From NCBI GenBank assembly GCA_964035545.1, contig OZ037767.1:29818128-29882127 (forward strand): a stretch of 64,000 nucleotides of DNA. Reading direction: 5' to 3'. The notes under the pieces are model-generated. The model was not told the DNA's origin and made no database searches. It saw only the letters and a program-made list of their open reading frames with translations. Shown one piece after another: positions 10,101 to 64,000 of the stretch. Both the position numbers and the translations under genes were made by a program. The number at the start of each line of letters is the position of its first letter. Positions within the stretch are counted from its first letter, which is position 1. This stretch comes from Bugula neritina (taxonomy: Eukaryota > Bryozoa > Gymnolaemata > Cheilostomatida > Bugulidae).

Positions 10101-13089
10101 ATGCATTCTCTCCAGTATAAGGGCATTGCTGCTATTACTATGAATATAATGGTGCTGATGGAAGTGTACAACTGTCACGCTGTCACAGTTAAAGGCAGCA
10201 CCATCTACAAGTCTTTTCCCCTCACCAGTACTTCTGTAGCTCAAGGTGAGTTCTTTGACAATTCATCGATTAATTCATATAGTTTGATTTTTATGAAGAA
10301 AAACCGTTGATTTCAACAAAAAGTTGGCACCTGTGACTAATGCACCATTTTACTCGCCTATAAAATATTGGAACTTCTTTGCACTACTTAGATGTTATAT
10401 TTTTAGTATACAAGTTAGCCTACTTTGTGCATTTAAGTCAAGCATTTGATGGTACGTATCATTTATTGTCAACAATTGGTTAACTTTGCAGGTACCCACC
10501 AAATAAATGTGACGAATCACACTCAATATTACAAGCAAGTAAAAAATAACTCAATGAATGTACCAGTTATAGAGGAAGAGTTAACCAATCAGAATGTAAC
10601 GCCATTATTTTCATCCACAATGACTACCAACATTCCAGCAACAGCAGGCTTCTCAGGTGAACTGGCAACTCAGTAAAATTATCAACTATACTATCACTTC
10701 GAGAATAAAAATAGACGTGTATTAGAAGTTGCCTTACCATGAATTGAACAGCCATATTAGTAGGAGTAGGAAGTATCTGTTTCTATCAAAGTAGTAAACA
10801 ACTTTTTGAAAATATAAAATATAACAGAGGAAATTAAAAAAGTTTCCAGATAATTATTCATCAAGATTTACGTTTTAGCTTGTTATGTTTTGACATTGCT
10901 TTAGCTTTTGCTTAAAAAATAGAGTATGAGATGATAGCTACAATAAGCACAGCTATGACAGAGAGTAGCTATTTTTCAGAACTAACTGCAGCGTATTGCC
11001 AGAAATGTTGTCATTTTGTATATTCACATTTTTCTACAATGAGGCGCAGATGTGTCTGGCGGTGGTGCCTGCATATTTTCTTCTGCAAAAAACTAATCGA
11101 GTTGGATTGAGTCATCAACATCAAACAATTTTTTTTCTACTGTTTGTCTTGAAGCAGTAGCATACAGATATATGCAACTATATAGTAATGTATTTTCAAA
11201 TATACTCAGCCATGATGAACTTGAGTGGCGAATCATAATTTGTGATAAACTTCTGATTAAAAATAATCACAGGCTTATAAAAGTATAATTTTTACTTATA
11301 TTTATATTTCACCTAACTAATACAAATGTAGTTCAGCTATTGAAAATACTTATTTTGCGTTTATTTCTAAAACTATCAAATTATCACAATGTATCATTGT
11401 AAGTTGATTTCATACAGAAATATTTTTCCCCATATTTTGTTTTAAAATTGACAACTTTTAGCAAATGCTTCACATTTTACTTCCTGATAATTTGCATTAG
11501 ATTATATATAGAGCATTTTCATAGTGTAGCTTGTAAAACAACTAGTTATATATACCTATATGGTTACTGTGTATATATAAGTGTTTGTCATTATTTATAT
11601 GCATGTATTTCCAGCCTGGTCTGAAACTATAACCAATGTGATCATCATGGCTTTCCTGGGAGGAGTAATCTGTAAATATCTTAAAGTTACCAAAGTGGTC
11701 AGGTTTGTATACATTCTACTCTTGACTAATTCTACTTAGTATTGCATAATATCACAATATTATGATAATCATATATCCTAACAGAACTGGGTCTGTTGGT
11801 TTGAGCTTCTCAACAATCACACATGGTGTTGTTGCTCTATATAGTATGTATTACAAATATAAACGAATAAGCTTTGAACAAAACTATATTATTTACACAT
11901 CACAGCTAACATAAGCCATAAAAACAGGTTCTAAACTGAATAATATGTTATAAATTTGGAGCAATTTTATGAGTTTAGAGGCTTATAATAAAGTTTTGTA
12001 TAACACTGGGGATTAGTTATAATGTCATTGGTGTATGTGATTATTACGAATATCTTCTGCCCCATTGGTTTATATAAAAAGTGTGAAACTTAGTATTATT
12101 TATTATGTTTAATGCTTGCAAACGTGAATTCAAAATCTAAAGGGCTCTTTTAGGTTTATTGAAAATATTTACTTAATATTACGCTTCTATGATATTTTGT
12201 TACGTAGATGTTACTTGTTATGATGGCAAGTGACGTAGGATGTGAAGATAAACAACTCAATGTATTAGTAATTTAATACTTGTTTACACAAATATATATT
12301 TTACGTTAGACTTGTCAATAAACACTATGTGTCTACAGCTTATAACATTAGTTAATGAATTTACACATGCAGACAAATTGCACTCTTACAAAAGACTGCT
12401 TATATGAAAAGCAGTCTTTCTCCTTTCTCTTTATCTGTGTGTAAAACATGACGAGGTAACTCCAATACAAGGAAACATCCCTGTAACATGTGACTGTGTT
12501 CACTTTAGCCTTGGTTACCTATTCTTATATTCTGAATTTGATGTGTTTTAGAAATTTGACACTAGCAGCACAAGAGGCTTTATCTAAACCAAAGGCTAGT
12601 CATAATGATACAGTAGAAGAGGAAAGTGTTGAAGACAGCAGACCTCTAACAAATGATCTAGCTAACACTCCCTCCATAGTTATTCATGATGCAACCGGTT
12701 CAACATACAGCTGTGTAACCTGCAATCATAACATGCATTCCTCACAAACTACTGATGTTCACAGTAACTCTAGAAAGCCTGAAAACCAGACATTAACTGC
12801 TCACAACCCAATATATGAGTTCCGTAAGACCTCTCAGTCGCTGGGAGGCAGATCTCAGTCTACCCCGGTGTTATGCAAATTGACAAATGATCATCACTTA
12901 ACTTATGAGATTATAGATAATATTCAGCCACCTGATAGGTGCAATCGTACCGAGTCAGCTGACCAACAGCATTCTAGTGGAGGAACTTCAAGGGAGTGCA
13001 ACTCCAACTCTAAAAGTTCAATAAATATGCAACAAGACAATGTAGAAAGCTTGACTAGTGATAGGGAAGCAGATTCTGAGTCTATATGA
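10101..13089 (+). CDS. Orphan single-pass membrane protein, 4 exons, 311 aa
   Basis: Exons 10101-10245, 10492-10656, 11615-11702 and 12552-13089 join in phases 1, 1 and 2 with GT-AG borders. Exon 1 has a hydrophobic leader (about residues 9-21). Exon 2 encodes a short ectodomain rich in Asn/Thr with several N-glycosylation sequons (NVT, NHT, NNS). Exon 3 carries one membrane segment (about residues 109-125), followed by lysines. Exon 4 is a 179-residue Ser/Thr-rich tail with tyrosine motifs NPIYEF and LTYEII, suggestive of a signalling or sorting tail. I recognise no named family. The start is chosen because it begins the leader; an upstream exon is possible. A candidate AATAAA lies about 250 bases after the stop. 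It is probably a surface receptor-like protein; the function is unknown. Confidence 0.6.
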
Positions 13090-30142: not shown

Positions 30143-33100
30143 TCATACATCACTACTTCCGTTCTCATTTTCATTAATGTGGACTTTGTTATGATAACTG
30201 TGGTTGTTTTCTTCTAGCTCAGGTTCATGAGTTTTCTTTAGGCTCAATTCTCGCTTTCGTTTTGCAGTTTTACAATGTCCCAATGTGCTCATGATAATGC
30301 ACTCTAGAAACTCTACAGCTGTGAGAACTGAGCATCCAATGAATAATCCAAGATGGCCGCCAATACTTCCTAGAAAACAAAGGCCCTTTCTTAGTAAGTC
30401 ATATTATGATGTAAAAAAATATAAAAATATGAATAATGAAATGCTGTTACTAACTGTTACCAAGTACATCCACTTTTGTAGTTGAAAATCTCAAAGCTAG
30501 ACAGAATGTGGGTATGATAGGAAGTATATTGTCTAACAGAAATAGCTTGGAAAAAGAAGACAGCCTATAACGGCCCTAATCTTTTGCTATTTTTATTGTG
30601 TTTTAATCTTGACTGATTTTGTGCAATAATTTTACTTTATCCTTGTCAATCTGACCACATCAATCACATCAAACTAGGATATTGATTGCAAACTCATTTA
30701 TATAAAACTGTATATTAAAATTTCAGTTCTGTAAGTTGGGAAACATTCATTTTCATCAGCCAACGAAAGTTGGTAAAAGAGTTTTATTAGCTTATTATTG
30801 CTGGCTCACTATAAATGAATAGTTATGAAATTTATTAAGTTGTGTGTTCAACAAGTGACTTTTTCCAATAGTTTAATAACTAATAACTATAATTCTTACC
30901 TAGTAGCGCTGTGCTGTCCATTGCCTTGTTCTGCACAGTCTCAGTTTCTGACATAGACTCATAATAAAGATCTAAACTCACCACGTTACCTCTAAAAATA
31001 CAAATAAAACATATTGGTACCACGAACCTAAGAGCTAAAACATAGCAGTGTCACAGCATGGGTTGTGAGTTTGGAATTGTTTATATTGTAGTACCAAGTA
31101 TGGCGGGAGTTCGTCAGCATGTAAAGTTATATAAAAAGTCACATTGAGTATGATCTCACCTGATATATTGAACTTGTGTGCCGTATTCTGGAACACCTGG
31201 TTGTACTTCTGGTAAAGTTATTTTAAACTTCTTTCCAAGATCTCCGCCGTAAGGGATATTAGGAAAGCTTGCATACGACAACTTGACGTCAAATTCTTCA
31301 TTCTTGCAGGCTATTGGACAGTCACATTCTTCGCCAAAGTTAGCATTGATTTTAGCTGAAGCATAAATATTGCAACAGTATGATAAGACATTTGTTTTCA
31401 ATTATATATTTATATTGCTTGGGTTTTTATACTGGTTGCCTAAGTCCAAATCTAAAACAATGTGAGTGAGTTTAAAAAGTTATCCATAGAAAATAATGTA
31501 TTTAAGTTATAAAGTAGTTTATATGTAGTAATGGTAATTGACCTTTAAAATTATTTCAGCAATATTAGTTTGGTTAATAACTACGTGATCAAATTTATAT
31601 AAATTTGAGCTAATTTAAAATCTATGCTAACTTGTTTAAATTTTCTATACAACCACTTACACAAACTTGTAATAAAGAGATTTCTGAGCTGCAGTAAATA
31701 AAAAAGATAAACTTGCTTATGACAGTTTGTTTACCTATTTCAATGAAAGCACATTGGCCGAGCTGCTCATAGCTGCAATCATCAAAGTCGCCGGGAAAGT
31801 AGTAGGGTTTGCATTGGCACTGTGCCACAACTCTGCTTAGTTTGCACTCTATTGCACAGGCTTCTACAGTGTAATGGTCTGCATATGTCAGCTTTCTCTT
31901 TGGGTTACATTTACCCCACGGTGGATAAAGATTGGATACCTAGTGCATGTAAAACATTGGGATTAGGAATAAAGAAAATACAAGCTCTATTTGACTATGT
32001 CAACGAAATGCAACAGCATTTAAAATGGCAGTTCTGATAGAAAACTACAATCAACAGAATCTGCACTAAAATATATTCAATAAAAAACTGTAGCTACTAA
32101 ACTATGCTGAAAATAATAAATAAATTTTAATTTCTAGTGGATTTCTAACCAAGTTTAATGACTCAAATCTGTTAGCTGCTGAATTATATTATATTGCAGC
32201 AGGCGATCTTACTCTGTTTTTGTTGAACCCAACGAAAGCCTTTTGTCCAGGTCCAGTTGAGTAGCCCATAGCATTTATCACTGGGGTTTGGTAGGGAGTG
32301 TGAACTATGAACTTTAACCCCAACTCACTGTTTCCTAACAGCTCCATAGCCTCAGCGTATTCCCACTACAATTGTTCACCAAATAATTAATACTTGTATA
32401 GCTCAACAATATGCAATATTTGTATGTTCAGCATATGATGAGCATTTCGACAGCGTGTTCTAAACAACAAAATACTTTTAGAGAATATATAAACATGCTT
32501 TAGTAGATATAACATTTTAAATATTATCTAATATTGCTTTTTATTTTATTGATAACTTGAATAAGAAAAAAAGATACTAGATTATTATTCTCTTTTTGCA
32601 TAACATTGTTTTCGAGTTTTTTTTATAGAATTTATAATTTATTTACCACTCATGTGTTAATCAACATTTTATTTGAAAGATACTACTTTTAGATATATAA
32701 TCATATTTTGTAGATTGTTTAGCTACACACTCTACTGTCTGTGCATGTTCATTTCTCTGTATGATATGACAACTCCACTTACTGTCTGAATGTCCAGCAT
32801 GATCTCTAACCCTCCAATTGGCCCAGCACTGTCTTGAATGAGAGGTAGGTTTACACCTTCTTCCTTGGCTAATGATTCAGGGATTTTATGGTTGAATGTG
32901 TAACAGTTTCCATAAGCTCCAAATTTATGGTCAAACCACTAAATAATATAACGTAAACATTCACAGATATATTGGTGTGCGTCACAATTACAGTTGGGCT
33001 ACATCTTTAAGCTAAAGGAACAGCCGATATCTAGGGATTGGAACATTAACCTAGTAAACATGGAGTCATGAGTTTAAACTCCAGTAAAGGCCATTGGTGA

Positions 33101-36100
33101 TGTTAGGAAGAGCATTCAGTCATAATAAACATTGCTGTTTTTCTTTTTGCTATTTGCATATTCACAGCATTCACACTAATTGCTTTTGCTAAATTATGGG
33201 GCTGTCGCCTTCCAAAGAGACCAGAAGATAAAATTACTTTACTGAAACTACTATATAAATATTATTTAAATGAAATGAATCAAGATTATCAATGTTGCAA
33301 AAAGCTGTTTTCATCTATAATTCAACATAAGAGACAGGAAGTTTGAAACCGAGTGAGTGAGAGTGAGAGAAATTTTGTAGGGACCACATAAACAACTGAA
33401 AAAGCACAAAATAGTTTAAAAACTCTGACAGGATTGTACAAACATAACTGACTAAATTATTGACTAATAAGGAGAAATTCAATATATTAAGTAAAAATTT
33501 ACTGAGTTGCATGCAACACAAAATCCTTTTTAGAATTTCTGTTGCGTTTCAAGTAGTTTAATAGTTTTTTACTAATTACCCGAGAGTCGCATTTCTTTCC
33601 TCGATATTTACAGTGTAGTAAAGTCTTAGGCTCTTCTGGGCCGTGGGATGAGTACTTATCAACCAGTTGCCAACCAGCCCTGCGTGTGAACTCAGCAAAG
33701 TTGAAGGTCTCGTTCCCACTTGCTGTGTTGTTTAAATTATTTGTGAAATTCTCTGCTGTAGTGTTGGACAAGGGTTCTACTGTTGCTGTGTCGATGACAG
33801 CTTGTCTTTTCACTCTCAAGTTAGAATGGTCTGAAATTATATTTCAAATTAAGCTGACTAAATTTGAACTAAAACGGCTACTATCTATATAACTACTATG
33901 ATTACTAAAACTACAGTTACTGCTACTAACATGCATTACTGTTACTAAATCTACTAACAATACTGCTACTGCCACAGCTGTTACCAGTATCATTACTATA
34001 ACTGCTAATATAAATAATAACTAATACCACCATAAGTAATACTAACACTACTACTACTAGTATGACATGACTATTACTACTACTGCTGGTGCTGGTGCTA
34101 CTGCTGTTACTATTATTGTTACTACTACTATTACTACTGTAACCCACTACCATTACTATTTATAGCAAGCTTGGTTCATTGATGTATAGAGATTTTTACT
34201 TTTCAATTACAAATGCTTTAAAAACTCACCATTTGAATCGTATTCAATGTCTTTGCCAGTCACCGAGCCACTCAAAGAAATGAGGTTGTTTTTCTCCATA
34301 CTGTACACATTTCCATTCCACAGCATTCTGTTCATAACATCGATCGAGAGCACACGATCCCACATATTGACGTTGGCAATTTCTGAGCCAGAAGATGCTG
34401 GGAGGGTTAAGTTGCCTGCTGTAAAATCAAATTAAAATTGTTTTGTGAACCACTTCTATTTTGAGCTATATATGAGTTGGCATAGCTCCTATTTCATAAC
34501 AAGTTTTAAAAAATTGACATTTATATTAAATACTGTTTTATAAACAAGACATTGGCATAATTATAATTATATTCATGAATGTTTACTAATGTTTGCCACA
34601 TTAGATTAATATGGCATTGGTTTCATCAGAATTCCTTTGAACTGTATTACCTAATCAGTTTTAATGTATTTTCAAAACTTCTACGATTAAGTAATTCTAA
34701 GAAAGGTTTTAAGGAATTCTACTAAGCTTCTTGCTAGAGACATTTATAAGCATAGACAGTTAGTAAAGGACTACTACTTCTTCAGGTAGGGTAGAGTTAT
34801 CTAGTGAGTGAAACTCATTTATCTCCATTGATTCTTTAGACTACCTATTAGAACAGTTACCATAGTAACAACAGACTTGTTGCACGCATCACACGTGCTT
34901 ACTTCTCACGTTGTTATCTGATAATTATTACCTTTTTATATAGCTCATCAAACAAGCCATGGAACTTTTTCAAACTATATTACCATTACAAGAGAACAAT
35001 ATTTATGATATCTTCTCAAAACTATCTTCAAATAAAATAATAATGGGCTAAGAGGCCCCTAACCCCTCTCATTTCAAATTCTATCTCAACCAAAGAACTT
35101 TTCATGTCATTCATAGAGCGATTTTTTCTAAAATCTAGTAAGCACTTTGGGACAACAGGCTTTATTCGGTAGAGCTAGGTAATGCATATTCACATTACAA
35201 TACTTGAGTGTGAAACTTTTAATCTAGTTCCAACATTTTTCAAATATTATCTAAAGTAAAAGTATAATATAAAAATTGTTTTTTACCTTGTAAATTCAAA
35301 TAACTTTCATATTCATTGAAAAACACCATTTTTCCAGTAAACGAGAATTCTTTGATATCAGCGATGGTGTCGTCTCCATATATCTCAAACGTATCTTTAT
35401 ATCCAATTAGGTACTTGTAAAGCTGAAAGTTAATAGCATGTAAATTACATAGGTAAGTGCACTTAGTTTATTATCTGTAATGGTATGTGAAAGATTTTGC
35501 TTAGTCTGTGATAAGAAATAGAAGGCTAGTAAGTGTGTTACTTGCAGTAGAAAGGCTGTTGGTGTAGCAAGCATAAATTCCATATTTAATGAGCTAGTTA
35601 GTCTGGGTTCAGCATTAATATTTCAGCATCTTCAATATTGGTTTTGGCTTTGTGGAAATCAATGCATTTGTAAAGTTTCATGATTTTCTTCTCAATTATT
35701 AATATTATAACCTTCCTTGGTCATTCAATAAATACTTTCAATACTCCATAAGTTGTATTTGAAATATGTTACACTAAAAATGCCAACAATACCAGCAATA
35801 GGATAGAATAGCAAAAATGTTAAGTTTAGTACTTGCAGTATTCCCAATACCAGCTCAGCACTAATATGATTGGTTTAGCATTAACATTTACACAATGGTT
35901 AGCTCAGCACTAATATATGTATGCAATGCCTTGCATCTAGAACTCCCAACTAGTATATGAATATTATGTAAGCTAATTTCTCACCTTCATTCTGTGATGC
36001 TATAAAAAAATAAAGCAGTAAAAATAAAATACTTATAATATATAATATATTTAACTTTTTACTAACTATAAACTCTCAGAAACTTTCATCATACTTAGTC

Positions 36101-39100
36101 TATTTATTGAATACAACAACTTAGGGGGTTGTATTCAATGCCAGTTTAATAATAAAAAGGTTACTCAACTATGTCTATGGTGGTCATAGTAAATAAGTGC
36201 TAAGGTTTCTTTCATTTTAAATTTATGCAGTCCTACAATACCATCATATATGGGTTAAAATTCTCGTGAGAGCATAACTTCTTATGCTGCATTTCTAATC
36301 TAGAAAACAGGCTTTTCTTAATTTCTCTATTACTGCACCTACCTCGAGGGGCTGCCTAGTTAAATTTACATGGTATTAAACAATCCAGAACAGTCCTAGT
36401 TATTCAACTGTGACTGAGGTGAGTGAATAGTACTAAAGTTAAAACAGTGAATAGTGTTGAAATTGGAAAAGTGAATAGTGATGGAGAAGTAAACTATACA
36501 TACATGGGAGCCTGTGTTGGTAGTGTAGTACTGGAGACAGACTGGATACCAGCTGTTGAAACTGTTGAGCAACACAGTACCTCCCTCAGAGCCAAAGAGT
36601 GTATACTTGATACCATAAATGTCAGGGGTGTCTTCTTGCTCTACTTGCTGTACTGAGAGTATTGTCTCATCTGGAACACAACAGAACATGTGGAATACAA
36701 CATAACTGCTGGAACACAACATAACATGCTGGTGGAATATAACAGAACTGATGGAACACAACAGAACTGGTGGAATATAACAGAACTGGTGGAATACAAC
36801 AGAACTTCTGGAATACAACAGAACTTCTGGAATATAACAGAACTGGTGGAATACAGCAGAACTGGTGGAATATAACAGAACTTCTGGCATACAACGATAA
36901 AAGTTTTGAGAAAGCAATAACCAACTCTGTGGCATTAATTATTATTCTGTTTCAGTCGAGCGGGCTTGGAGTTGAGCCTTTTGGAGAATATTTCCAAAAC
37001 CATAACAGCTTTTATATTGTTACTAATGACTGATTTATGATGATCATGGCAGAAAGCTTTCGTGACAGCCTATGCAGTCATACCATGTCAGAACTGTGGC
37101 TCAGGTGAAGCTAACAAAAAGTGTTTAGTTCCAGCTGCTCAATCAGTAATGTTAGAATTAAATTTCAATCAATCATACGTGCTCAGGTATGGTGAAAAGG
37201 GGTTAAGCATTTTAGCATGCACAGGCAAAAATATGCATGGTATTGGTTGAATGTAGTGTATAGTATAGTACTGTTTTTCGTCTTGCCTGTAAATTCTTAA
37301 ATCTTTGCATTATGTTGGCTGCAATACCAATCATTTATAAATATATTTTATTGCTGGTTAAAATTGGTTATCACCTCCGGGCTTCTAAACCACTGGCAAT
37401 AGTGAAAGCATGTGCTTGCTGGCAAAATAGTTAGCAATTTTCAAACATTATTTCTATAGCAACTCAGTAAAATAGCAGAGTGTTCAAAGCAAATTAATTG
37501 CTATCGAGACCCATTTGGTCAAGAATTTATATATTCGCTTGATTAATCCACAACTGATAGCCCATAAATTAATGTGTTGCTAAAAAATGAAGATGTCATA
37601 GAATTTAGTTGGCTTCCATCAAAGTGATTGGCGGTCAATGGTTGACAGTAGATAATGAACAATTTCAATTGTAAAAGTTATTTATATGCTAGAATTTAAA
37701 TTTGAAAGCAAATGATTAATTGGTAAAGCAAACCTAAATTTTCAATAAACACTTTAAATAGCTGAAAGAATTATTTACTTGTTGATCCCTTGTTCAAATA
37801 ATGCAATTTGTATTGCTCCATCAATAGATAGGTAACAAATTAAATTTCCTGAATTAAAAAATGACCGTAAGTTATACTGAATAAAGTTTACATATTCTTT
37901 GTTAAGCAGCCTACTTTGAATTATCATAACTTTTCATAATTTCTTTGGAGTTTGGAACAATTTTTAGTTTTTTAATTGATTTATTGCCCACTTTAATTTG
38001 ATTTATAATATTCCACAACTAAAATAAGCTGGCATATTTTCCAATCAAAAAATATGAATGAATGCAAATGAAAACACTTCAAAAAATATCTTTGTTGATA
38101 TTGGCTATGTCAACGCCCAGCTCACATAATTTACTAATCATCAAATTAAGTTTTTAATTCTGGCACAGATATTATTTCAGTGTAACAGATATTTCTGCCT
38201 ATAAAACATTTTTTCCTTCTTGCATGCACTTTAAGCATTCCCACAATATGTAAGGATAGGTTTTGAAGTGATGCAGCCTCATTGAATAATAATCGAGGCC
38301 AAGAGTTACTACTGCTAGAGGTACAGCTAGATTCACTGCTAGATTCACTGCTAGAATCCATGGCTCCATAACAGCTGACCTACTGAGCACTTGACTTATA
38401 TACTGTTTGACCTATATAGCACCTGACCTACCTAGCACTCTACCTACATAGTACCTTGTTAGTTAGTAATCATAACAACTGAAGATATTCATATTATAAT
38501 ATTATTTTAAGTCTGTAACTGTAACCTAGACTGCAGTTAGCAATTGCATTCAGAATGTTACCAATCAAATGTTTTTAACCATATATAGTTCCAAAGATCA
38601 TTTCACCTCTATATAACTACAGATCGGCTTGCAAATGAATTTAATTATATTATTTATGTACTCGGGCAGTAACTAAAATCTTACGTCAAGCAACACAAGT
38701 TAATCACATCCTAATCTTTTAACCTGTAATATATGAGCCCGATACCAACTTAACACCCATATAGTATAGGCTATCAAGCCCTAAACACTTATACAAGATG
38801 CTTAAACTCTCAGTTTTCTAATGACATCATTGCACTGTTCACGTTGACATGCGAACCTCTGGTGGTAAAGTTATATATATCTGGGATATAAACTCCGCCT
38901 CCAGCCATGCTGGTAGCTTGACCTAAGAGCTTTTAAAGTAAATCATAAGCTCTTCTTGACATCGGCAATGACCATGATAGAATTTGATTCACCCATGCAG
39001 CTATAGTTGAGCTATAGTTGCACTGCAGTTTAAACCTCTGTCTATACCGTGTCATAGCTGCTCTCCGATATCATTTTAAATGAACATATCTTGGCACGTA

Positions 39101-42100
39101 TTATGTGCTCTATGTTTGACAACTTATAATTCATTGTTGATCCTGGAATCCCATGTATATCCTGAATATAACGGTTTTCAGGTTCTTACTAGTTCAAACT
39201 GATCATTATTCGAGTATGTATGTGTTTCAGGATGTAGAATTCATTCCTTTTTGTCAGTCATAAAACTCATAATGATAATTTATGAACCTAATTTAGTCAT
39301 TCTGTCTAGCAATCTTAAAACTTGGCGTTTAACTTCTTGGCAAAATACAAACGGTATATAAACTACTCTTTTATTAATGTCTGGTTGAAATACCGTTATG
39401 TAATAATTAAGTTTCACTGCCTTTTATGTTGAGGAGATATATTTTATGTCTGTGACCACGATGGTAGTCACGTGTATGCACTAGACCACGTTACTTCGAA
39501 ACAAACAGCTAATTGCAATACGATAAACAGTCTCTTCAATTTAAGTAAGGCTAAACTCTTAAACTCTATCAAATGTGAATACGTGAACATTTAGCTGCTT
39601 GAGCATGTGCTGGAGCCAATCAACTCACTTTAGGCTATTCTTTTCATTGGTAATGGCTATCATCCTTACAAATTTTAATTGCATAATTGAGGAGACTCTA
39701 AGTTACAGAAATTCAAAATTTAAAATTTGATCAAGTTTTTGATGTCAACGCAAAAGCTGAAAAAGTAATATAGTGTTATAAAAGTTGGTCAACTATTGGA
39801 TTATAAATTAACACAGGAAAAAAATTTAAACTAAAAGTAAAAAATCGCAGCAACAGTCATGATAACAAAGTATTAGAACGCAAGACTACACAAATCTTTT
39901 GGTAGCACCCAACTTTGCTGCAAAAAGTGCTTAAATTTATTATAAATAAAAGACCAGGTAATCATATCTTTTCAACAACGTTTTACATAAATAAAGTTAG
40001 GTACCAAAACGTTTCACTTGAAACTTTTGCATACTGTTTTTATTACCAGTTTTAGGCTGCATTTTCTCTACATGATTGTTTGTAAATCAACACAGTTCTA
40101 AGTTGCATTTAATCCGAATATAATTTGTACTAAGTTACATACACTTCAATATCAAAAACTTCACACTTTCACTTTCAAAGGAGGATAATGCTAAGTGTCA
40201 CTATTATAGGAATTTCCATCGTACTTCTTAGCAAGTTTCACTATAGTTTCAGTTTTCACTCACCTCCAGACCCGTAAGATAGGACAGTTCCCAGTTGACT
40301 CCGTCTCAAAGTTTTCACCCAAAAACAAAGCGTCATCCCATTGCTTACTGACGAAGAGTTGACGTACCGAAAGTTACTGGATATGGCCATAGGTGTCAAA
40401 GATTGTTCATGGCTCACAGAGTATATTAATCCGGTTTGGGCCACTACAAACCATCAATGAAAATCAGCTACCAATATTATTAGATAGAATTGAGCACAGC
40501 AGTAATTGACTGACCGTGTAACAACTGAATTTTAAACTAAGCTTCAATAGTAAAACTGTAAAAGCTTCAAAAGTTTAACTTGCAAGCTACTCATTGCACT
40601 ATAGGGGCTCAACTCAACCTATATTCTCTGGCACATTTACATAGTATAGCGTCAGTTTTTAAGTTAGAGTTCAGCTGAAGCAAGTTGGATTTGAGTAGAA
40701 AATCTGTGCTCTTATATATAATCTTCACTGAAATCTACATCCATAACCTATGTATATAGCATAAGCTTTCTACTTGATGCTATTATATTGAAGGTTGGTA
40801 GAGTTCAGGGCAAGGTTTATTACTGCACACTTTTCCAGACAAAGTTAGTTGCAAAAAACTGCTTAGTGACTGGAAGTGGTTTGCAATAATATCAACCTGT
40901 ACTTGGCAAGTGATAGATAATCAGCATTTATCTCCAGGTTTGTTCATACTAAGAATAGCATATTAATTTAATTCTTGCTGTAAAATCATCCGTATAACTT
41001 TATACCAGCCAAACAGGAATTATTTGACCGTAGATATACGGTTGGGCAAGCTAGCTGGAAAAATCTATCTGCCTTATGAGTAGTAAGTAATTAATTTTTT
41101 GTAGAAGCAAATTATTATAATGCGGCTCAGTAAAGATCAGAGTGTATTATAATACACAGGTTTAGGTGATTTAACAGCCAAAGTGCTTGTCTAATATTAG
41201 TTTCATTCTCAGCCTTTGTATGTGTGAACTACATTTTTATGCACAAGAAAAGATGCGGTTAGCTTTTTAGTTATTGGTTTTGTAAGATAAATTGGTACCA
41301 ATTTTCTCAAGAGTAAATTTACATACAATCAAAAACCGTATTATGATATTGAAAATGTACCACCTGTTTTATGCTATTTATAACAAGATTAGAAAATGAA
41401 GATGCATACACAAATCATCATAACTTTTAGAAGATGTGGTGGAAGTAGAATGTGTCTTCTCAGTCTATGACTGAAAACAATCATTCAATAATTATAAAAA
41501 AACTTATTTTTAAAAAATGGATAAACAATTGTTTACTAGGGTTTCAACATAGACCACATTTGATTTATTGACATTATTAGAATAAAATTTACATGACAAA
41601 TTTCTTGCATAGTTTCGTAATATATTATTGACCAAGCAAAATAATTAACCAATTTGCTTTAATAGCCTGCCAGGCATAAATGTGTTCCTGGAGCAGAAAT
41701 GTGATTGTGCTGAGTGGGTAGGCAATTCATGCTGGGTGGAGGCTCACCTACATGTTCCAGTTAGCCAATCACCAGATATATATTGAGCAATGCTGTAATG
41801 TTTCAAACGTTATCAGTGAAAGAGCTCCATGATTACAGCTATATACTCAAGCTGTGCGCGATCTTGCATTTACATTATATACAAAAACTTGTTTGGTAAA
41901 AACTGAAACTTTTTTTACGCAAAGTTATAGTGTAGTCCTACTCTGTTATTCTAAGTAAGGTTGAGTTATATATATGCAGATCTTACCTAAACTTACAATG
42001 GATTGACGCAATAAATTCTATAAACACTAAACATCGAGGTTAAAAAAGGCAGTCAAATGTGTGTTAACTGCACAGGGTGTCACCTTCACAGTATTTCATC

Positions 42101-45100
42101 TGCAAAGGGTGTCAGCCTGCATGTGTGTCACCTGCATATAGTGTGTCACCTTCACGGTGTGTCACCTTTACAGTATTTCACCTGCAAAGGGAGTCAGCCT
42201 GCATATGTGTGTCACCTTCACAGGGTTTCACCTTCATAGTGTCTATTTAAAAAAACTGCAGTAGATAACCATTTTGTTCTGAGTAATATTTTCCAACTCA
42301 CTGTTTACACAAAGTGGTGGTTGATCACTAAAAGTTCCATTTTCGGTACAAGTCTGTTCTAAGGCCCCATCCATGGGTACAAAGTTGTTCCCCTCGCAAT
42401 AAAAAGTTATGTTGGATCCTTCACTGGTTGCGGTACGTTCCACGTTTGAGTAATCACCATTCAGGTGAAAGTTCAAACCATTGAAAGCCAACGGAAGCAT
42501 GCAGATTGACTTAGTTGCCAGTGTAGTAGTTGTAACTATGGGTGCAGCTGTTGTCTCTTCTTGATCTGTAAAGCAAAGATTAAAAAAAATGTATATGCAA
42601 TAATGATAAAAATAAAACTAAGTAACAGACGGTTGCTGCATTCAGTCTGTTTTTGTTATTCTCTACTAATTTCAGTTTTGCTAAAAGCATTGTTTCTGAG
42701 AGCAGTATTTGCGTTTGATGAATACAAAGTTAGGCATTAAAAGCTGCCATTTAAACTAGCATGTATCTACTGCATGTAATGTAAATGCTGGAAGCTGTAA
42801 GTGTCAAATGTTCATTCAAATGATGCACGCAGGTAAAAATGTTTCACAAGTCAAGCTCTTTATTTTATCAAAGTTTACATAAAATAAATTGAATCATCTG
42901 TCAAATAGTCATTGTATTTTCTAACATAACTGCAGCAGTATATGTGCATTTGAAGCAAAGCAAAGTTACTTTAGCTGCCCAGGTAAGCTAACCAAAAACT
43001 GTCAAATCTATCATAGAAATATGTTGGTTTTTTGTTGATTATTTTCAAGTTAATTGTCATATAAGTTTATAGCCGCCATGCAGTGAGCTTATTCATCAGT
43101 TTATTGACACATGTCTTGCTAGTTTCTATTTTCAAGTAGAATTGGGTTTAATTATAAAATGAAGTATGATTGATTTATTTAGTTCTTTTGATTAGCAACT
43201 CTCTATTAGTTGTAAATATACAGATGTAAGGGGCCGGTGCTGTAACTTTCTGATGTTTCTTGAATCAAATGCCATCGCTCAGTTGTGAGAGGAAATATAA
43301 AGTGCTTTAATAAATTTCCTTACATGAGAATAACATATTAGCTAATCTTGGGACTGCACTATTATAATACACTAGTTTGCTTATAACCAAGTCAGTTCGA
43401 TCTATCCAAACAATTAAAATGTGCATGACTAGGGCCAAAGCTGCTGTAAATCTTTCCCATGATACTTTTCACTTATTTAAAACAAATTTTGTGTTTCAAT
43501 ATATGAAGCACATCAATGTAAAATAATTACAGTAAATTAACTAAAAGATTCTGCTATCTTTAAATTGTTGGTTACCTTATTATTTATTGACCAGTTTATT
43601 GATTACGGAAGAGGTCATTGATAATCAACTCAAATTATTGATTCAAGCTCAAAACAGTGTACTTACTCAATGCTTATATATGCAAAACTCTAGAGTTGTC
43701 TAACAATTAACAAACTTCATAATGATCTAAAGTTTGTATGTTAGTCCTTCATTTGCAGTTAGTTTGTATACTTATGATCATGATACATCTGATAAGTCCT
43801 TTAAATGACATGCATGTACATAAATCATTGGCATCATGCATGCACTACCATTCCTAAAATCCTGTTAAATTGATTACTATAATTTGCCAACAGTTCCTAA
43901 CATCACTTACCCACTTTATACTCAATTTTATATCCTGTCTATTTATAACCCAGACTTCGGTCACTACTTGTTAAGCTGTCTAGAGAGCATTAGTTTGTTG
44001 AATGCCAAGACACGAGACTGCCAATGCCAGTTTGAGCTGTCAAATACCGGAGCCTCTCTTTGACTTACCGAGTAGAGAAGCCAGATTGGAGACCTTCACC
44101 TGGTCAGATGAGTCACTCAACTCCGGGATCACGTAATCATAACTGTACACAGACAGTACTTTCCGCAGATTTGCCAACGCCTCTTCTGTTAAATGTGATT
44201 TTCTCCACCTGCAGAAATATATTGGCACTAAAATTGGTAGCTCATTTGCTTTCAATCATTACTGAGTACTAGGTCATGCTCACTTTGCTTGTGGTGACAG
44301 CTAACCGACATAAATCTGGAGTGATTAGGTCACATTAATTGTGGCTTACAGAAGATGACGCTTATATATTGAAGATGTAAGAGCACCGATCTGGTTATCA
44401 CTTTTGCTGTTATTTATTCTACTTAGAGAAATTCTGAGTCATCCAAGACTTTTCACTTTAAAGCCAATCAAGGCAAATGTTTTGTGAGCAGATTAATTTA
44501 GTAACAACTACGTATGTTAATTCTTATAGTGTGCTAAAACAACTTTTGCTGAAGATTCGATCTAAAATGTATAGCTACTGATAAATTGAAAGTCTATAAT
44601 TGCTTACTTGTACAAACTATGGTATGCAAAGCTGATTGCTTGCCAAACTAGCAACATCTTTAAGGTTACGTCACTTGTAACAGTCAGGGCTGTTTTTCTA
44701 CCCCCAATGTAATGTCACCTTTTAGCTCAAATATGTGACTCAAAAGGACAATTCGCTGTTTGAATATAAGTGCAATACTTGTTTGGTGTAACTGTGACAG
44801 TGCTATTTTCAGAGTTATTGCCAATAAAGTATTGCCTAACTTTATTTGAAAATAGTTCGTTTTAGTCGCCTTAGTTAAAACTCTATCTTAGGATTTTAGC
44901 AAAGCCAGGCGCAAATGTAAGATCTCTAAAACTTTTACTTAGAATTATATAAACTTCTATAAAGTCTAAGAGATAGAAAACCTAAAAGAATTAATTTTGT
45001 TCTGAATAAAACTTTATTGGAAGCCAATTATAAAATATCTTTCGATACAATTTACAACACGATTATAAAAGATAAAAATTGCAGTCGGAAGTTATAAACA

Positions 45101-48100
45101 TCAGAAGTATGACATGTAATAAGCATTTAAGAACCAAGATCTGACGTATGGTGTTGCAACATCAGAAGAATTATAATCAGACTGCAGAAGATTATTTATA
45201 CAGTTACCATGACGACCTGTCTGGAGCAGTGTATCTCCAGCAGCTGATGTTATTCAATGCAATCTTCAGTGTATAAATTTGCATGCGAGAAGATTTTAAT
45301 GACTATTAGGTGACCGCTGCATAAATTTTTTACTTTTTTAAATAAAAGTATGGAAATCAAACTTCCTCTAGCTTTGCCATAGCAATCTTACTTCCTTTGT
45401 TCTTTTTCACACCACAATATTGTTTTATTTTTCCAGTTTTTACTCTCCAGTGAATTTTGTAAGGAAGTAGACATTTATCATTTCGCTTTGCCTATTCTTT
45501 CATCCACACTAAAGCCATTTATCTTTTAATTTTAAAATATAAAGACAAAAGAGATAGATTTTGAGCATCATAAATTTATTATCAGTATCTTTCCAAGTGG
45601 ATGCCTAAATTTATCTAGTTAAAAACCTCGTCTTTTTGCTCACCAGTTTGGAAATACTTAGAGAAAATAGCAAAACTTTTCACATTTTGTTATATTTATA
45701 GCTTTTGTTTTTAAAATCTATAGAGAAGCTTTTTTGCAATACGATAACCGAAGCCTAAAGCATTTATTACTTTAATGCGTAGGAGGCCCACCCATATAAT
45801 GACCATATTAATATTTCTTAAACTCATTGATGGCAGATGTATACAGTTAACGTTTCTTTCAAGTTCAAGATTTATAACAACTTTCGAGGTTTAAATAATG
45901 TTTGATAGTAAAACATCAAATTATTAAAAATCATCCAGAAATTAGTAAAGTTGATTTATAATAATTATATCATCTTTTATATCCATATTCTCAATTTACA
46001 AAAATTACGTAGGTAGTATAAAAATTATAATTATTAAATAGTGACTTATGAACATTAATTAGTTCAATAGTTTTCTAAAAGCTTAGATTGTTAATATAAA
46101 TTGGATTATTTAAAACTTTTTCAATAACTGTAACTATACATCATTTAATAATTAGATAGAAATAATACAGCAAAATGAAGATAGTTTTGTTGTAAATTTA
46201 TAGCTTCAATTAGTTTTGAAAAACAATTCGAATGTCAAGTTTATTGACGTCTTAAGCTGTATTTGATTCATACAGGCCATTATGGTGATTATGCAATACA
46301 TGCACAGTAGAGAATATATTTTGCAGTCAATTCAGATAAATTGATTTAGCTTTGGAAATAAATCGATTGCAAAACTTTAAATTGCTTACTCTCAAGTTTG
46401 CAATCTAAAAGTGGGTAAAATAAGTAGATGCGTGGTATGTGGGTGGTCAAACAGCATTTTATAGTTTAAAATGACCAGTTTTGTAACAATATACGTCTTT
46501 TGAAACGAAATTAAAAGCTTTTCAATGTCATATTAACATATTATAACAAGACAACTGAATTTTTATTTAATTTCAAAATTTAGGTATTTCTATAACCTAA
46601 ATTTTGAAATTAAATAAAAATTCAGTTGTATCGTTATCAATTTTTTTAACCTAAAAGTTTTAGTTTTAGTTATACTTTTACTAACATAAAATCATATTAA
46701 TAACAATTTGCAAAAATAAAAAAAAAACAAAATTTGTTTACCCAAATGTATGGTGAATTTACCAAACAAAAAGTATTTTACTGAATACTTTGTGGTTCAA
46801 CTCTTAATCTCACTACTTTACTCGCACTTCTAATAGTGGTCAGGAAAATATTTGTATGTAAACAATATGTTTAGTGCTAGCTATATAAAAGACATTTGAA
46901 ATTCTACTTATAGCAAATTAAGGTGAAACTTGGGCACATTGAACAATAATGAGTCGAAGAAATATTAGAACATTAAAATACAAGCACAGAAAGGGATAGC
47001 TACTACATGTAAAAACATTTGCCTTCATCAAGGATTGAATTTTGAGACCTTCAACTTGCAAGCCCATATGATACCCATTGTACATATTATAGATACTATA
47101 GGGGAATATTTATTTAATTCTACTACCACACTACCAACACATGTGCAACATTTTCCAATTAAATCAGTGCAATCATAAAAATGAAACCTGTAAGGTTTGA
47201 TTTATAGTTTTTGTGTCTTTCAGTCTGTCTTCAATGACTGATTACTTATGGGAGGTGATTACAGAGAGCATGTGGGCTTAATAGCCTATGATCTTATTAG
47301 AATGTTGGACACTACTGTCAAAGCCTGGTGATGGATTACTGAATAATTGAGTCAGATTATAATAAATAACTCGACTTAATTCAGCTTAACTGATAAAAAA
47401 GTTGTTTGTCATCTGAATAGATTCACTGGTTTTTTGCAGTGTATAGTTATCTAAAAATTGTACAGTTCACTCTAAGAGGGAAAAATGTTTTGAAACTGTT
47501 GATATTTGAATTAACTCACCTGTTGAAATTGCAGAATGTCACAGCTGGGAACTCAATTTTTTCCTTGTTGATTTTAGATATTTCTGTGGTGGTGAGAAAT
47601 TGATGGTACGTGTGAATGCTCTGATATATTTCATAAGTAACGTACACAAAGCAAGCTGAAACAAGAATAAAACCAAGGATACAAAACTGACCAAAAAAGA
47701 GTTAATGATTGCCACAGAACATTGCATAATAATTTTAATAAATATTGATATCATAAACATATTAGTAAGAATGTTAATTTCTCAAACTAAGTTGAAGGCA
47801 AGAACTTTGAAAATTTGTTTATTAGAAACAACTTTAAGGAAACAAAAACTGGTTTCCCATGTTTGAGGTGCAACCAGATGTTATAAGCATATCAAAGATA
47901 CAGATTGTGCTAGTTTTAACATAATTTTAGTTTGCATACATTTTAGAGTGATAGTAATTTTTGAATCTAGTTTTTAGTTGCCTGATTTGTGCAGCTTTTA
48001 CTTGCAAATGCTGTAAAAATTTACTATTTTCGGAGCATAAATGAATTTGTGCTGCTACTAACTTTTGTTTGACTTTCAAATGTTATGGTATTTTATAGCT

Positions 48101-48382
48101 TAATGATTGTCTAGATCAGTATTTAAAAAGCATGCAACGGAAATTTTTATTGATGTTTTCACCAAATTTTTTTTGTGTTCTGTTTGCAGAACATTTGATT
48201 TGATTTGTGACTGAAAATAAAGAGTTGATCATACCAGCTAGAACTACAATCCACACAGCTCTTTGTACTTTAGCAGTTGATATAATTCTTGCTACTCCAT
48301 GAGCTGATGTATTCTGTGCCCAATATAACTCATATATTTCTTCTTCTTCTGCAGTTTTCACCTCTTCTTCTTCTCGAGACAT
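30143..48382 (-). CDS. DEG/ENaC ion channel with inserted Sushi and pentraxin-like domains, 15 exons, 879 aa
   Basis: Exons in coding order: 48382-48235, 47655-47520, 44208-44069, 42565-42302, 40443-40264, 36670-36504, 35422-35287, 34418-34230, 33830-33580, 32938-32783, 32365-32213, 31939-31735, 31355-31160, 30991-30900, 30369-30143; all phases agree. DEG/ENaC subunits form trimeric Na+ channels gated by peptide, acid or force. The conserved parts are the gating His-Gly (28-29), TM1 (about 41-63), FPAVTFCN (85-92), CKYRGKKC, GNCYTFN, YPPWGKC, CQCKPYYFPGDF, CDCPIAC, and TM2 with IGGHLGLF and the G-x-S filter (GCS, 816-818). Between the post-TM1 segment and the finger/palm region lie a Thr-rich linker, a Sushi domain (Cys163, 198, 214, 227) and a pentraxin/laminin-G-like fold (about 230-450; FWVK, NVNMWDRVLS), then RVKR (459-462). 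The usual family length is 500-700, so the insert explains the extra size. The cytoplasmic tail is Glu/Asn-rich without PPxY. Confidence 0.94.
33017..33140 (+). mobile_element. tRNA-derived SINE, copy 1 (channel intron 9)
   Basis: The head shows weak A-box (ATCTAGGGATTGG) and B-box (GAGTTTAAACTCC) similarity. The body has CCATTGGTGATGTTAGGAAG and CATTCAGTCATAAT, which match copy 2 at 60744-60588 read on the minus strand. It is more diverged than copy 2 and lies inside the channel gene in opposite orientation. Confidence 0.75.
33890..34160. repeat. Degenerate ACT/AGT trinucleotide block, channel intron 8
   Basis: Interspersed ACT, GCT and ATT triplets give a Ser-rich open frame on the minus strand; this is compositional, not a gene. 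Confidence 0.75.
36254..36342. mobile_element. Partial copy of the 8209-8364 MITE
   Basis: TTTCTAATCTAGAA, ACAGGCTTTTCT and ATTACTGCACCTACC align with the right half of the element at 8283-8371. The left half is missing. Confidence 0.6.
36671..36895. repeat. Minisatellite, 16-19-bp unit, abutting the channel exon 6 acceptor
   Basis: About 11 copies of CTGGTGGAATATAACAGAA or CTTCTGGAATACAACAGAA on the plus strand. In gene orientation each unit reads TTCTGTTGTATTCCAG, essentially the used acceptor (TTCTGTTGTGTTCCAG before the exon at 36670), so many units present a potential alternative AG. Confidence 0.9.
42058..42245. repeat. Higher-order tandem repeat, channel intron 4
   Basis: Words such as GTGTCACCTTCACAG, TATTTCACCTGCAAAGG and GTCAGCCTGCAT recur in the same order about twice, with shorter internal copies. 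It lies 57 bases downstream of the exon 4 donor. Confidence 0.8.
46551..46629. repeat. Perfect 35-bp inverted repeat (hairpin), channel intron 2
   Basis: The left arm 46551-46585 (ACAACTGAATTTTTATTTAA...) is the exact reverse complement of 46595-46629, separated by the nine-base loop ATTTCTATA. Outside the arms pairing decays quickly. Confidence 0.93.
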
Positions 48383-49771: not shown

Positions 49772-52700
49772 TTAAAAATTCATCTTTGCTGAAGGTGCCA
49801 GCAATGTTACTGTTTCATAGCTGGGTAATGCATCATCTATGTTAGCAGGTGCTCTGTCTACTGGACTGGAAGGATAGAGAGAGCTATTGGCCATCACCTA
49901 CATGCAAAGTGAAACATAATTCAGTGTCATACAATCTTTGGGCTTCGTGACTGTATTATAGAACCTATGGCCGGGGATAAGCTAATAGGCCGTTAAACAG
50001 TAAACAAGGGAAACCAACTCCTAAACATATCAGAGTATACAATTGAGGAAGATAATTTAATGAATTTGGAGGCTTTCCTGGTAAAATTGATTAGAAAGTC
50101 AATAGCAAATAATAAATGTGTAGACAAATCTTACAACAAGATTTTATTAATAGCCGACATTATTGAACTTCTTACCTTTACAATTCATAAAAGGTAAATG
50201 TTGAATTGGTGCCAATAAACTAAAAGTTTTTAACCTGGCTTTTGAGAAACAAGGCTAAAACTATAGTCAAATCTTTGAGTACCATTCATAGCTGTTAACT
50301 CTTTTATTGCTAAAAGCTGTAAATCTACCAACCCTGTTATAAGCATGACAGTAAGCACTCTAAACATATGGAGTCCGAAAGCACCCATTAATACATCAAA
50401 TGTTTATACATACATCACTATACTGAGGTGGTAGAAAGGCAACTTCAGAGGGAATCTCCAGCACTGTTTCCTCTGGTGCAGAAGGTTGGCTCTCATTGGT
50501 TGAAGGAAGTAATGCTGGCATCGTGAGTGAATAGGAAGATGTATTGTCTCCATGAAGAGACTCAACGCTGTTGTAGCTGCGCTGACTAGATCGGGCATGG
50601 AATCGTAACTCCTCTATAGATTCATGCCGAGAAATGTTGTGCAATTCTCTTTCATCTAAGAATATTTTTAAATAATACTTTGGAATATTCGATATGCAAT
50701 TATTGGTCATTTTAATGTGATTCACAGCACATGGCCACTTACACGATGACTACTGATAACCAGTCTCTCTAGTTTTAACAACAAATCTCTAAGGCTATGT
50801 TAGAATGTGGACTAAAGTAGCACATACTATAGTTGTGTATATGCTATTCCTAAGTTTTATCACTTTAGTACTTAAACTTATGTGCTTTCCTCAAAATCGG
50901 TTTATCAATTTACCCAACAGTTACCCTTAATTATACGAAATTATGTACAATAACAATAATCAGCTTTGTATGCAATGTCTGCCATTTTATAGTTCTGCTC
51001 ATATTATTTATAATAATTAATTATAGACTTATGAGTTATTCTTAATACAATATAGTGAATATGTTATAAATAGGATTTTCTAATCAATACTTATTTTTAG
51101 GATTTAAAAAAAATAAGATTTTTTGCAAAAAGCTAATTAATTGCATTGCAAGACTAGTACAGCTACTGCCAATACAAATGTCAAAAATCATTGTAATATT
51201 TCAGATTCTTATAAACTCATTTCAATACAAAATTACAAAGTACTCTTCAAATATTTCTTTTTAAATTGTATGCCATTTCGCAAGTCTTCAATATTTTTCA
51301 ATTCTAGAGTTGGTTTGCTTACAGAGTATGCAATAAGTATAGACTTAAATCAACAGCCACAAGAAAGAGGGGCCCTTACCAGCAACGTTGTTGATTTCAT
51401 GATCAATCCTCTCAGAGCTCTTGCAATCCCAGCAGTGGTCAAAAGAGGAAGCGTTAGCGCTGATAACACAGGCTAATATTACTAACACAACCAGAATGAA
51501 GGCTCCTGCAATACCAATGGTTGGCAGAATTGATTCAACCTTTGACTCAGCCTTAGTGCTCTCAATCCTACAAATGTACAACCAGTATATATACATGTAA
51601 AATCAGTGTATATATATGTAAAATCAGTGTATATATATGTGCAATCAGTGTATATATATGTACGACAAGCGTAAAAATATATGCATGTGCAATCATTTTG
51701 TATATACATGTACAGTTAGTGAATGCACAAGTACAATTAGTGTATATATACATGTTAAATTAGTGTATATACATGCATGTACAATTATTGAACTATTGTA
51801 TACACATGTACACCTGGTGCATATACATGTACAACCAGTGTGTATTAATGTAAAACTATAATATGTGTACATACATACATGCTAAATTAGTGTATATATA
51901 TCTACGAATGCAAACTTGTAAAATTGTGTGATAACCACAGGCATACCATGTGTATGTTCCTGTAGTGACCTCAGCAGATGTAGATGGTGCTGCCGATGTT
52001 GACTCACAGCTCACTCCACAATTCAGCACTGATGTCCTGTAATCAAAACAGCAGTCGTCTCTCTCTTCAGCCACAGACCAGCAGTAAGACGTATATTTAC
52101 AGTAGAATCTCTCAATAGTAGCTGCATTTACTATAAGGTAATCAAATATGCTCTTGGACAATTCTAAATATCTAAATATCTTTTGCCAAGTCAATTGGCT
52201 TTAGCAAATAGCAGCACAAGGTCACACAACTTCTGTAAGAGTTATTTAGTTTAGCCTGAACTACTAATCAACTTATCAATAAGTTCAGCTGTGCTCGCAT
52301 AGATGAAAGTAGTTGAGGTTTCTTAGTATTAATCATGAATCACAGTCTTTCTAGTTGTGTGTGTGTGTTTCCTATATTAATAAGAGGTCAAGGCTAACAG
52401 CTCTATCTGTTAGTAAGAGATACATAGAACATGTAGCCTAATGCACGAGTATGGCAGAAGTTACATCGGCCTAAATTCACACACATCTATCAATATGATA
52501 TCTGTAGATAGTAAAGTACTCCAGGTAAAGGTTTTATTTACAGGTACAAACAATAAACAGGTTATTTCTAAAACAACTTGCCTAATAAAAATGTAAGTGT
52601 AAAATTAGCATGAATCTAGTTAAATAAAGATTCTTCAAGTTTTTCATGTTAGCTGAATGTACTCTTGCAGTTACTGGTAGCCATATTTAAAATCAGTAAG

Positions 52701-61517: not shown

Positions 61518-61647
61518 CTACAAAAATTAAAAAGTAGATGAAGGTTTCATGTTGTTCAATTCTAAAGCTTAACAGTGCAGTCTATATTGTAATCTATATA
61601 TAATCTATACCGTTATCTTTTCAGCACTAACAGATCAGATATTTGCG

Positions 61648-64000
<2,353 letters not shown>

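Follow-up and report, generated by a model that had tools for sequence, protein, structure and literature searches.

A predicted DEG/ENaC channel subunit of Bugula neritina with a Sushi–pentraxin-like module in its extracellular finger

The bryozoan Bugula neritina carries, within the 64,000-nucleotide stretch of DNA analysed here (the window; contig OZ037767.1, positions 29,818,128 to 29,882,127), a gene predicted to encode a DEG/ENaC channel subunit into whose extracellular part two domains are built, one Sushi and one pentraxin-like, a module more typical of secreted or adhesion proteins. As judged from the sequences of three related proteins, this channel/Sushi/pentraxin-like architecture is almost certainly real. 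Our overall explanation, which we consider probable, is that the gene encodes an ASIC/BASIC-like DEG/ENaC subunit with a Sushi-pentraxin module in the finger, brought in as shuffled phase 1-1 exons. A preliminary description of this DNA had proposed the joined protein from a frame- and phase-consistent chain of 15 minus-strand exons (48382-30143). Rebuilt by script, that chain gave one open frame of 879 amino acids plus a stop, with GT-AG boundaries at all 14 introns and consistent phases along its length, and the motifs named at the time (HG, FPAVTFCN, a four-cysteine Sushi block, NVNMWD and the G-x-S filter, here G-C-S) were all found again.

Shared architecture in three bryozoan proteins

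The evidence that carries the join comes from two homologues. An uncharacterized protein of Watersipora subatra (P0001; 941 amino acids, isoform X2) shows 46% identity over 98% of the window protein and, used as a query, matches 15 of the 15 window exons in collinear order. A further copy of the module, flanked by ASC matches, lies in the B. neritina genome itself (215.8-Mb assembly, 295 contigs) on the same chromosome as the window gene (C3:17194558-17197968; the contig that holds the window has 32,418,041 bases). The model of this paralogue has 15 exons with the phases of the window gene and encodes 964 or 965 amino acids, depending on the copy of exon 12 that is chosen. The order channel half, Sushi, pentraxin-like domain, channel half is common to the window gene, the paralogue and the Watersipora protein, and the search for this order in other invertebrate proteomes that the preliminary description had proposed found its match in W. 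subatra. Because the homologues carry the same join, exons 4-8 are unlikely, on sequence grounds, to represent a separate mRNA; because it recurs in two B. neritina genes and in a W. subatra protein, a wrong fusion of neighbouring genes is very unlikely.

Identity among the three proteins is 63-68% in the C-terminal ectodomain and 50-54% in the N-terminal part; within the module it is 38-43% in the pentraxin-like part and 28-42% in the Sushi domain. In a tree of 15 sequences the paralogue, not the window gene, groups with the Watersipora protein (0.816), and for this reason one-to-one orthology between the Watersipora protein and the window gene is not claimed. The predicted carriers in our searches belong to only two cheilostome bryozoans. 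The whole-protein search covered 5.77 billion proteins, and among the best 8000 candidates, which were scored, the Watersipora protein was the only other carrier; this is weak evidence, as ordinary DEG/ENaC channels were unlisted too. When the Watersipora module served as the query against the protein database, it found only itself among 4282 scored candidates. All 10 scored candidates of a genome search with the module were exons of the window gene or the paralogue, and module profiles matched paralogue exons only among 4375 open segments from 22 loci (L019-L040), which include 20 regions around part of the genome's 78 ASC matches.

The paralogue also contains two tandem copies of exon 12, at joined coordinates 12163-12364 and 12642-12846 of L019/L020 (G000:C3:17189000 onward). 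Both copies have GT-AG boundaries and compatible phase, and they are candidate mutually exclusive exons of the cysteine-rich ectodomain; comparison of the Watersipora protein with the window exons gave one copy only in the window.

The window protein is predicted to be a DEG/ENaC subunit from the ASIC/BASIC-like side of the family. Pfam ASC matched the 879-residue protein with E=1.8e-82 (278.2 bits, cut-off 23.6). Two stretches, SAHGVAR (the HG motif before transmembrane segment 1, TM1) and FIGCS (the G-x-S motif in TM2), align with ASIC1, and statements on TM1, TM2 and the trimer are based on family membership. The nearest solved structures of the channel part are ASIC1, ASIC2 and ASIC5 (BASIC), at about 1e-55; with 1.9e-56 for the best channel-part match, ENaC (1e-26) and FaNaC (1.5e-25) are more distant. 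In the 15-sequence tree, which holds no ENaC or vertebrate ASIC1-4, the channel stands beside lamprey BASIC (support 0.80), and a protein-database search with the channel half of the Watersipora protein returned 14 proteins, the nearest being an ASIC5-like protein of Antedon (35%). The palm His in the ASIC1 stretch PHVTKLDE, which we take to be H73, the proton sensor, aligns with Thr, and Thr occupies that place in all three bryozoan proteins, which makes ASIC-type proton gating of these channels doubtful. As a separate observation, residues 26-99 of the Antedon protein (P0002) match a reverse transcriptase (2.4e-6, just under the Pfam cut-off), perhaps owing to a mis-annotated start.

Domains of the module and its position in the finger

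Sequence comparison moderately supports the identity of the first domain as Sushi. Its cysteines (C163, C198, C214 and C227) fall in matching columns in all three proteins. The Pfam Sushi model was under its cut-off of 20.7 bits with the full window protein (5.7e-3, 17.5 bits) and over it with a 69-residue piece trimmed to the domain (1.1e-4, 23.0 bits); it gave 19.1 bits in the 293-residue module of the window gene and 14.7 in the full Watersipora protein, and was reported for all three modules, at best with 2.7e-4. The best PDB matches of a profile of the three modules included complement factor H, C2 and CR1, with weak E-values (0.01 and up), and NPTX2 at the same level (E=0.017).

For the second domain a pentraxin-type fold is likely but not proven. 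The profile of the pentraxin-like part gave seven PDB matches up to E=10, with NPTX2 first (0.0051) and NPTX1 second (0.012), and with three DNA polymerase delta chains (0.8) and CRP (1.1, 1.3) as the others. Profile blocks stand in the right order, two for NPTX2 and three for NPTX1; the block with the first cysteine aligns with both proteins, and the middle block, with the second cysteine, aligns with NPTX1 only, at −1.8 bits. The pair C269/C334 and its equivalents are kept in matching columns in all three proteins. Each of these numbers is weak alone, but block order, spacing and the cysteine pair together make the fold likely. Pfam reported Pentaxin and Laminin_G_3 in one of the three modules each, both below cut-off (Laminin_G_3 at 0.039 in a 223-residue piece), and neither of them for the full 879-residue protein. 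The HMM search suggested in the preliminary description gave a clear match for ASC, a match over cut-off for Sushi on the trimmed piece only, and none over cut-off for Pentaxin or Laminin_G_3.

That description had also raised the idea of a built-in lectin-like sensor for Ca2+ or a glycan. CRP positions 147 and 150, presumably Ca2+ ligands, align with T and A in the window protein, and an EYE stretch found in two of the proteins is SYQ in Watersipora. Ca2+-dependent lectin binding, and with it gating by Ca2+ or a glycan through a lectin, is unsupported because of these replacements, and the calcium-lectin reading of the module was set aside.

An alignment made with the module left out departs from ASIC1 at residue 138 and resumes at residue 144, so that ASIC1 has about five residues at this place, within the finger. 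The GRIP domain of ENaC, situated between finger helices 1 and 2, holds protease-sensitive tracts (excerpts of PMC6197857), and the interval of the insert probably corresponds to the GRIP interval. Behind the module, a furin-type motif is present in all three proteins. RVKR at 459 in the window protein and RVRR at 458 in the paralogue occupy the same alignment column, and the two Watersipora motifs, RSKR at 482 and RVKR at 500, lie in the same linker, 42 and 60 columns further on, both after the module. The window gene and the paralogue have one such site each and Watersipora has two; tandem cleavage sites flanking an inhibitory tract, as in ENaC, were not found in the three proteins. Release of the module is not expected, because two of the three proteins carry one furin-type site. 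In the paralogue, the linker after this site is longer and contains 11 N-x-S/T sequons in residues 483-558. The predicted furin-type site, the phase-1 symmetry, the finger position and the paralogue go beyond what the preliminary description had given.

Origin, function and rival explanations

Exon 4 (Sushi, 264 nucleotides) and exons 5-8 (pentraxin-like, 672 nucleotides together) each have phase-1 introns at both ends. Skipping exons 4-8 retains the frame and yields a 567-residue protein that aligns with ASIC1 at both ends. Two of the 20 regions around ASC matches, chosen for their recognisable finger exons and with no module found in them, have an apparent phase-1 intron in the matching finger interval: L024, with a donor at 2438 (ACAAAG/GTGAGA) and an acceptor at 4084 (TTTCAG/GACAGG), and L025, with a donor at 6564 and an acceptor at 6844. 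These donors were chosen, partly by eye, to fit the frame from 6 and 15 listed GT sites, respectively; the L025 donor, GTATCA, is not strong, and the L025 acceptor was initially read by eye. A phase-1 intron in module-less relatives would be expected if 1-1 exons had entered an old phase-1 intron, and the module was, in our judgement, very probably acquired by exon shuffling into such an existing intron. No source of the module was found.

A mechanism can be sketched in which every functional step is drawn from knowledge of the family, the gene structure being the part that was observed. The subunits would form a trimeric Na+ channel that displays three modules at its periphery. A furin-like protease would cut after the module, which would stay tied to the TM1 half and be freed from the rest of the finger. 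A partner in the extracellular matrix, in the cuticle or on a cell surface would then bind the module, such that finger and thumb move and the gate is biased; as an alternative end step, the bound partner may simply hold the channel in place. Control of gating by a ligand or by adhesion via the module is a possibility that we put forward tentatively. A bryozoan-specific class, in which the module independently stands in for the GRIP domain of ENaC, furin nicks the finger beside it, and a matrix, cuticle or neighbouring-zooid partner gates the channel by binding the tethered module, seems to us unlikely.

Several points weigh against an ASIC/BASIC-like subunit with a Sushi-pentraxin module in its finger. 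Pfam Pentaxin gave the 223-residue piece 0.0087 and 16.2 bits against a cut-off of 25, and the blocks of the pentraxin profile match, taken singly, reach i-Evalues of 0.46 at best. The equation with GRIP is based on alignment with the ASIC1 sequence, not with ENaC. Functional consequences in ENaC need double cleavage of one subunit (excerpts of PMC8791634), whereas neither the window gene nor the paralogue has more than one furin-type site. The weakness of the pentraxin matches would also suit a second domain that is some other LamG/ConA-like beta sandwich, with Pentaxin and Laminin_G_3 both below cut-off and two Ca2+ ligand positions lost; given the two collinear blocks shared with NPTX2, the three shared with NPTX1 (of which the middle one scores −1.8 bits) and the conserved cysteine pair, we consider this improbable. 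Very much less probable still is that the model falsely joins a channel gene to a separate Sushi-pentraxin gene nested in it or lying between its parts. With lengths of 1.5 to 3.6 kb, introns 2 to 5 may raise the thought, but the same join occurs in the Watersipora protein and again in the paralogue, whose exon phases are identical, and the 15 exons are collinear on one strand.

Two further explanations accept the join and differ in how the module is used. It may solely anchor or cluster the channel, much as some secreted CCP or pentraxin proteins act on other receptors, and have no gating role. The neuronal pentraxins, which are the best matches to the pentraxin-like part among solved structures, point this way; one neuronal pentraxin binds AMPA receptors (excerpts of PMC12799932), and synaptic proteins with CCP domains, as reviewed in PMC9083331, count on the same side. 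Set against anchoring alone are the furin-type site behind the module in all three proteins and the location of the module in the finger, a region that moves during gating in a model its authors call speculative (excerpts of PMC6197857), and we regard a purely anchoring role as plausible but doubtful. The other explanation takes exons 4-8 as a cassette that some transcripts skip, giving an ordinary DEG/ENaC subunit and confining the module to one isoform. The retained frame and the ASIC1-like 567-residue product are what a cassette would need, and the Watersipora record, as isoform X2, implies that more than one isoform is annotated; however, the furin-type site and the Asn-rich linker in exon 9 would then stay without the module, and a cassette appears somewhat unlikely.

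Gene layout and comparison with known systems

Table 1. Exons and furin-type site of the B. neritina channel gene, in window coordinates.
Feature	Content	Position	Strand
Exon 1	N terminus, HG motif (48296-48301), TM1 start	48235..48382	-
Exon 2	Remainder of TM1, FPAVTFCN (47528-47551)	47520..47655	-
Exon 3	Finger, first part; phase 1 at end	44069..44208	-
Exon 4	Thr-rich linker and predicted Sushi/CCP domain; 264 nt, phase 1-1	42302..42565	-
Exon 5	Pentraxin-like domain part 1 with C269, first of the conserved Cys pair; phase 1-1	40264..40443	-
Exon 6	Pentraxin-like domain part 2 with C334, second of the conserved Cys pair	36504..36670	-
Exon 7	Pentraxin-like domain part 3	35287..35422	-
Exon 8	Pentraxin-like domain part 4, including NVNMWD; phase 1 at end	34230..34418	-
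Exon 9	Furin-type site, Asn-rich linker, final finger part	33580..33830	-
RVKR	Furin-type site, residues 459-462, within exon 9	33805..33816	-
Exon 10	Channel ectodomain (YGNCYTFN)	32783..32938	-
Exon 11	Channel ectodomain	32213..32365	-
Exon 12	Cysteine-rich ectodomain; two copies in paralogue	31735..31939	-
Exon 13	Channel ectodomain	31160..31355	-
Exon 14	Channel ectodomain ahead of TM2	30900..30991	-
Exon 15	TM2, G-C-S filter motif (30329-30337), cytoplasmic tail, stop	30143..30369	-

Short imperfect tandem repeats are visible by eye in intron 5 (TTCTGTTGTATTCCA-like units, window 36680-36870) and in intron 4 (GGTGACAC-like units, window 42080-42240). Upstream on the same (minus) strand, from 49790-50500 to about 55100, lies a further gene or genes; read by eye, this part shows an end with PPQYSD and PSYET motifs, one transmembrane stretch, and a cysteine-rich exon of PAN/apple-like type. 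A (CA)n/(TG)n microsatellite of ~0.9 kb, visible as open frames, occupies 61630-62540.

For the bryozoan Membranipora, a putative ASIC has been described before (PMC9949801); sushi, pentraxin, LamG and furin occur 0 times in the main text of that paper, nor do sushi, pentraxin and EGF occur in the main text of PMC9822975, or sushi and pentraxin in that of PMC10507113. Among the open-licence PMC papers that our searches listed, none dealt with Sushi, pentraxin or laminin G domains in a DEG/ENaC or ASIC channel, with the limit that the spelling 'DEG ENaC' may miss 'DEG/ENaC'. The gene suggests that the finger of a DEG/ENaC channel has room for an adhesion-type insert of about 290 residues, in a lineage distant from the vertebrates and near or at the interval of the protease-controlled domain of vertebrate ENaC. 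Convergent protease or ligand control of this channel family would then be directly testable. The gene is also a clean candidate for an ion channel altered by exon shuffling.

Sushi stands beside pentraxin, or a pentraxin domain sits on a membrane receptor, in SVEP1/polydom and in adhesion G-protein-coupled receptors with pentraxin domains; these are not ion channels. Neuronal pentraxins 1 and 2, which head the profile matches of the second domain in the module, are secreted proteins and not part of a channel polypeptide. ASIC1, ASIC2 and ASIC5 (BASIC) are like the bryozoan channel in that the HG and G-x-S motifs and the cysteine-rich ectodomain align, but they are without the Sushi-pentraxin module, and the ASIC1 palm His is Thr in the bryozoans. 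ENaC alpha and gamma, through their GRIP domain, are alike in having an additional finger domain together with furin-type sites. In contrast to the module, GRIP consists of a few beta strands and is described as unique to ENaC (excerpts of PMC6197857 and PMC8791634), and ENaC needs two cuts where two of the three bryozoan proteins have one site. The EGAS proteins of Caenorhabditis elegans likewise join a DEG/ENaC channel to an added type of domain (excerpts of PMC10424705), although that domain is EGF and not Sushi-pentraxin. Because EGAS proteins combine EGF with ASC, the addition of domains has precedent within the DEG/ENaC family.

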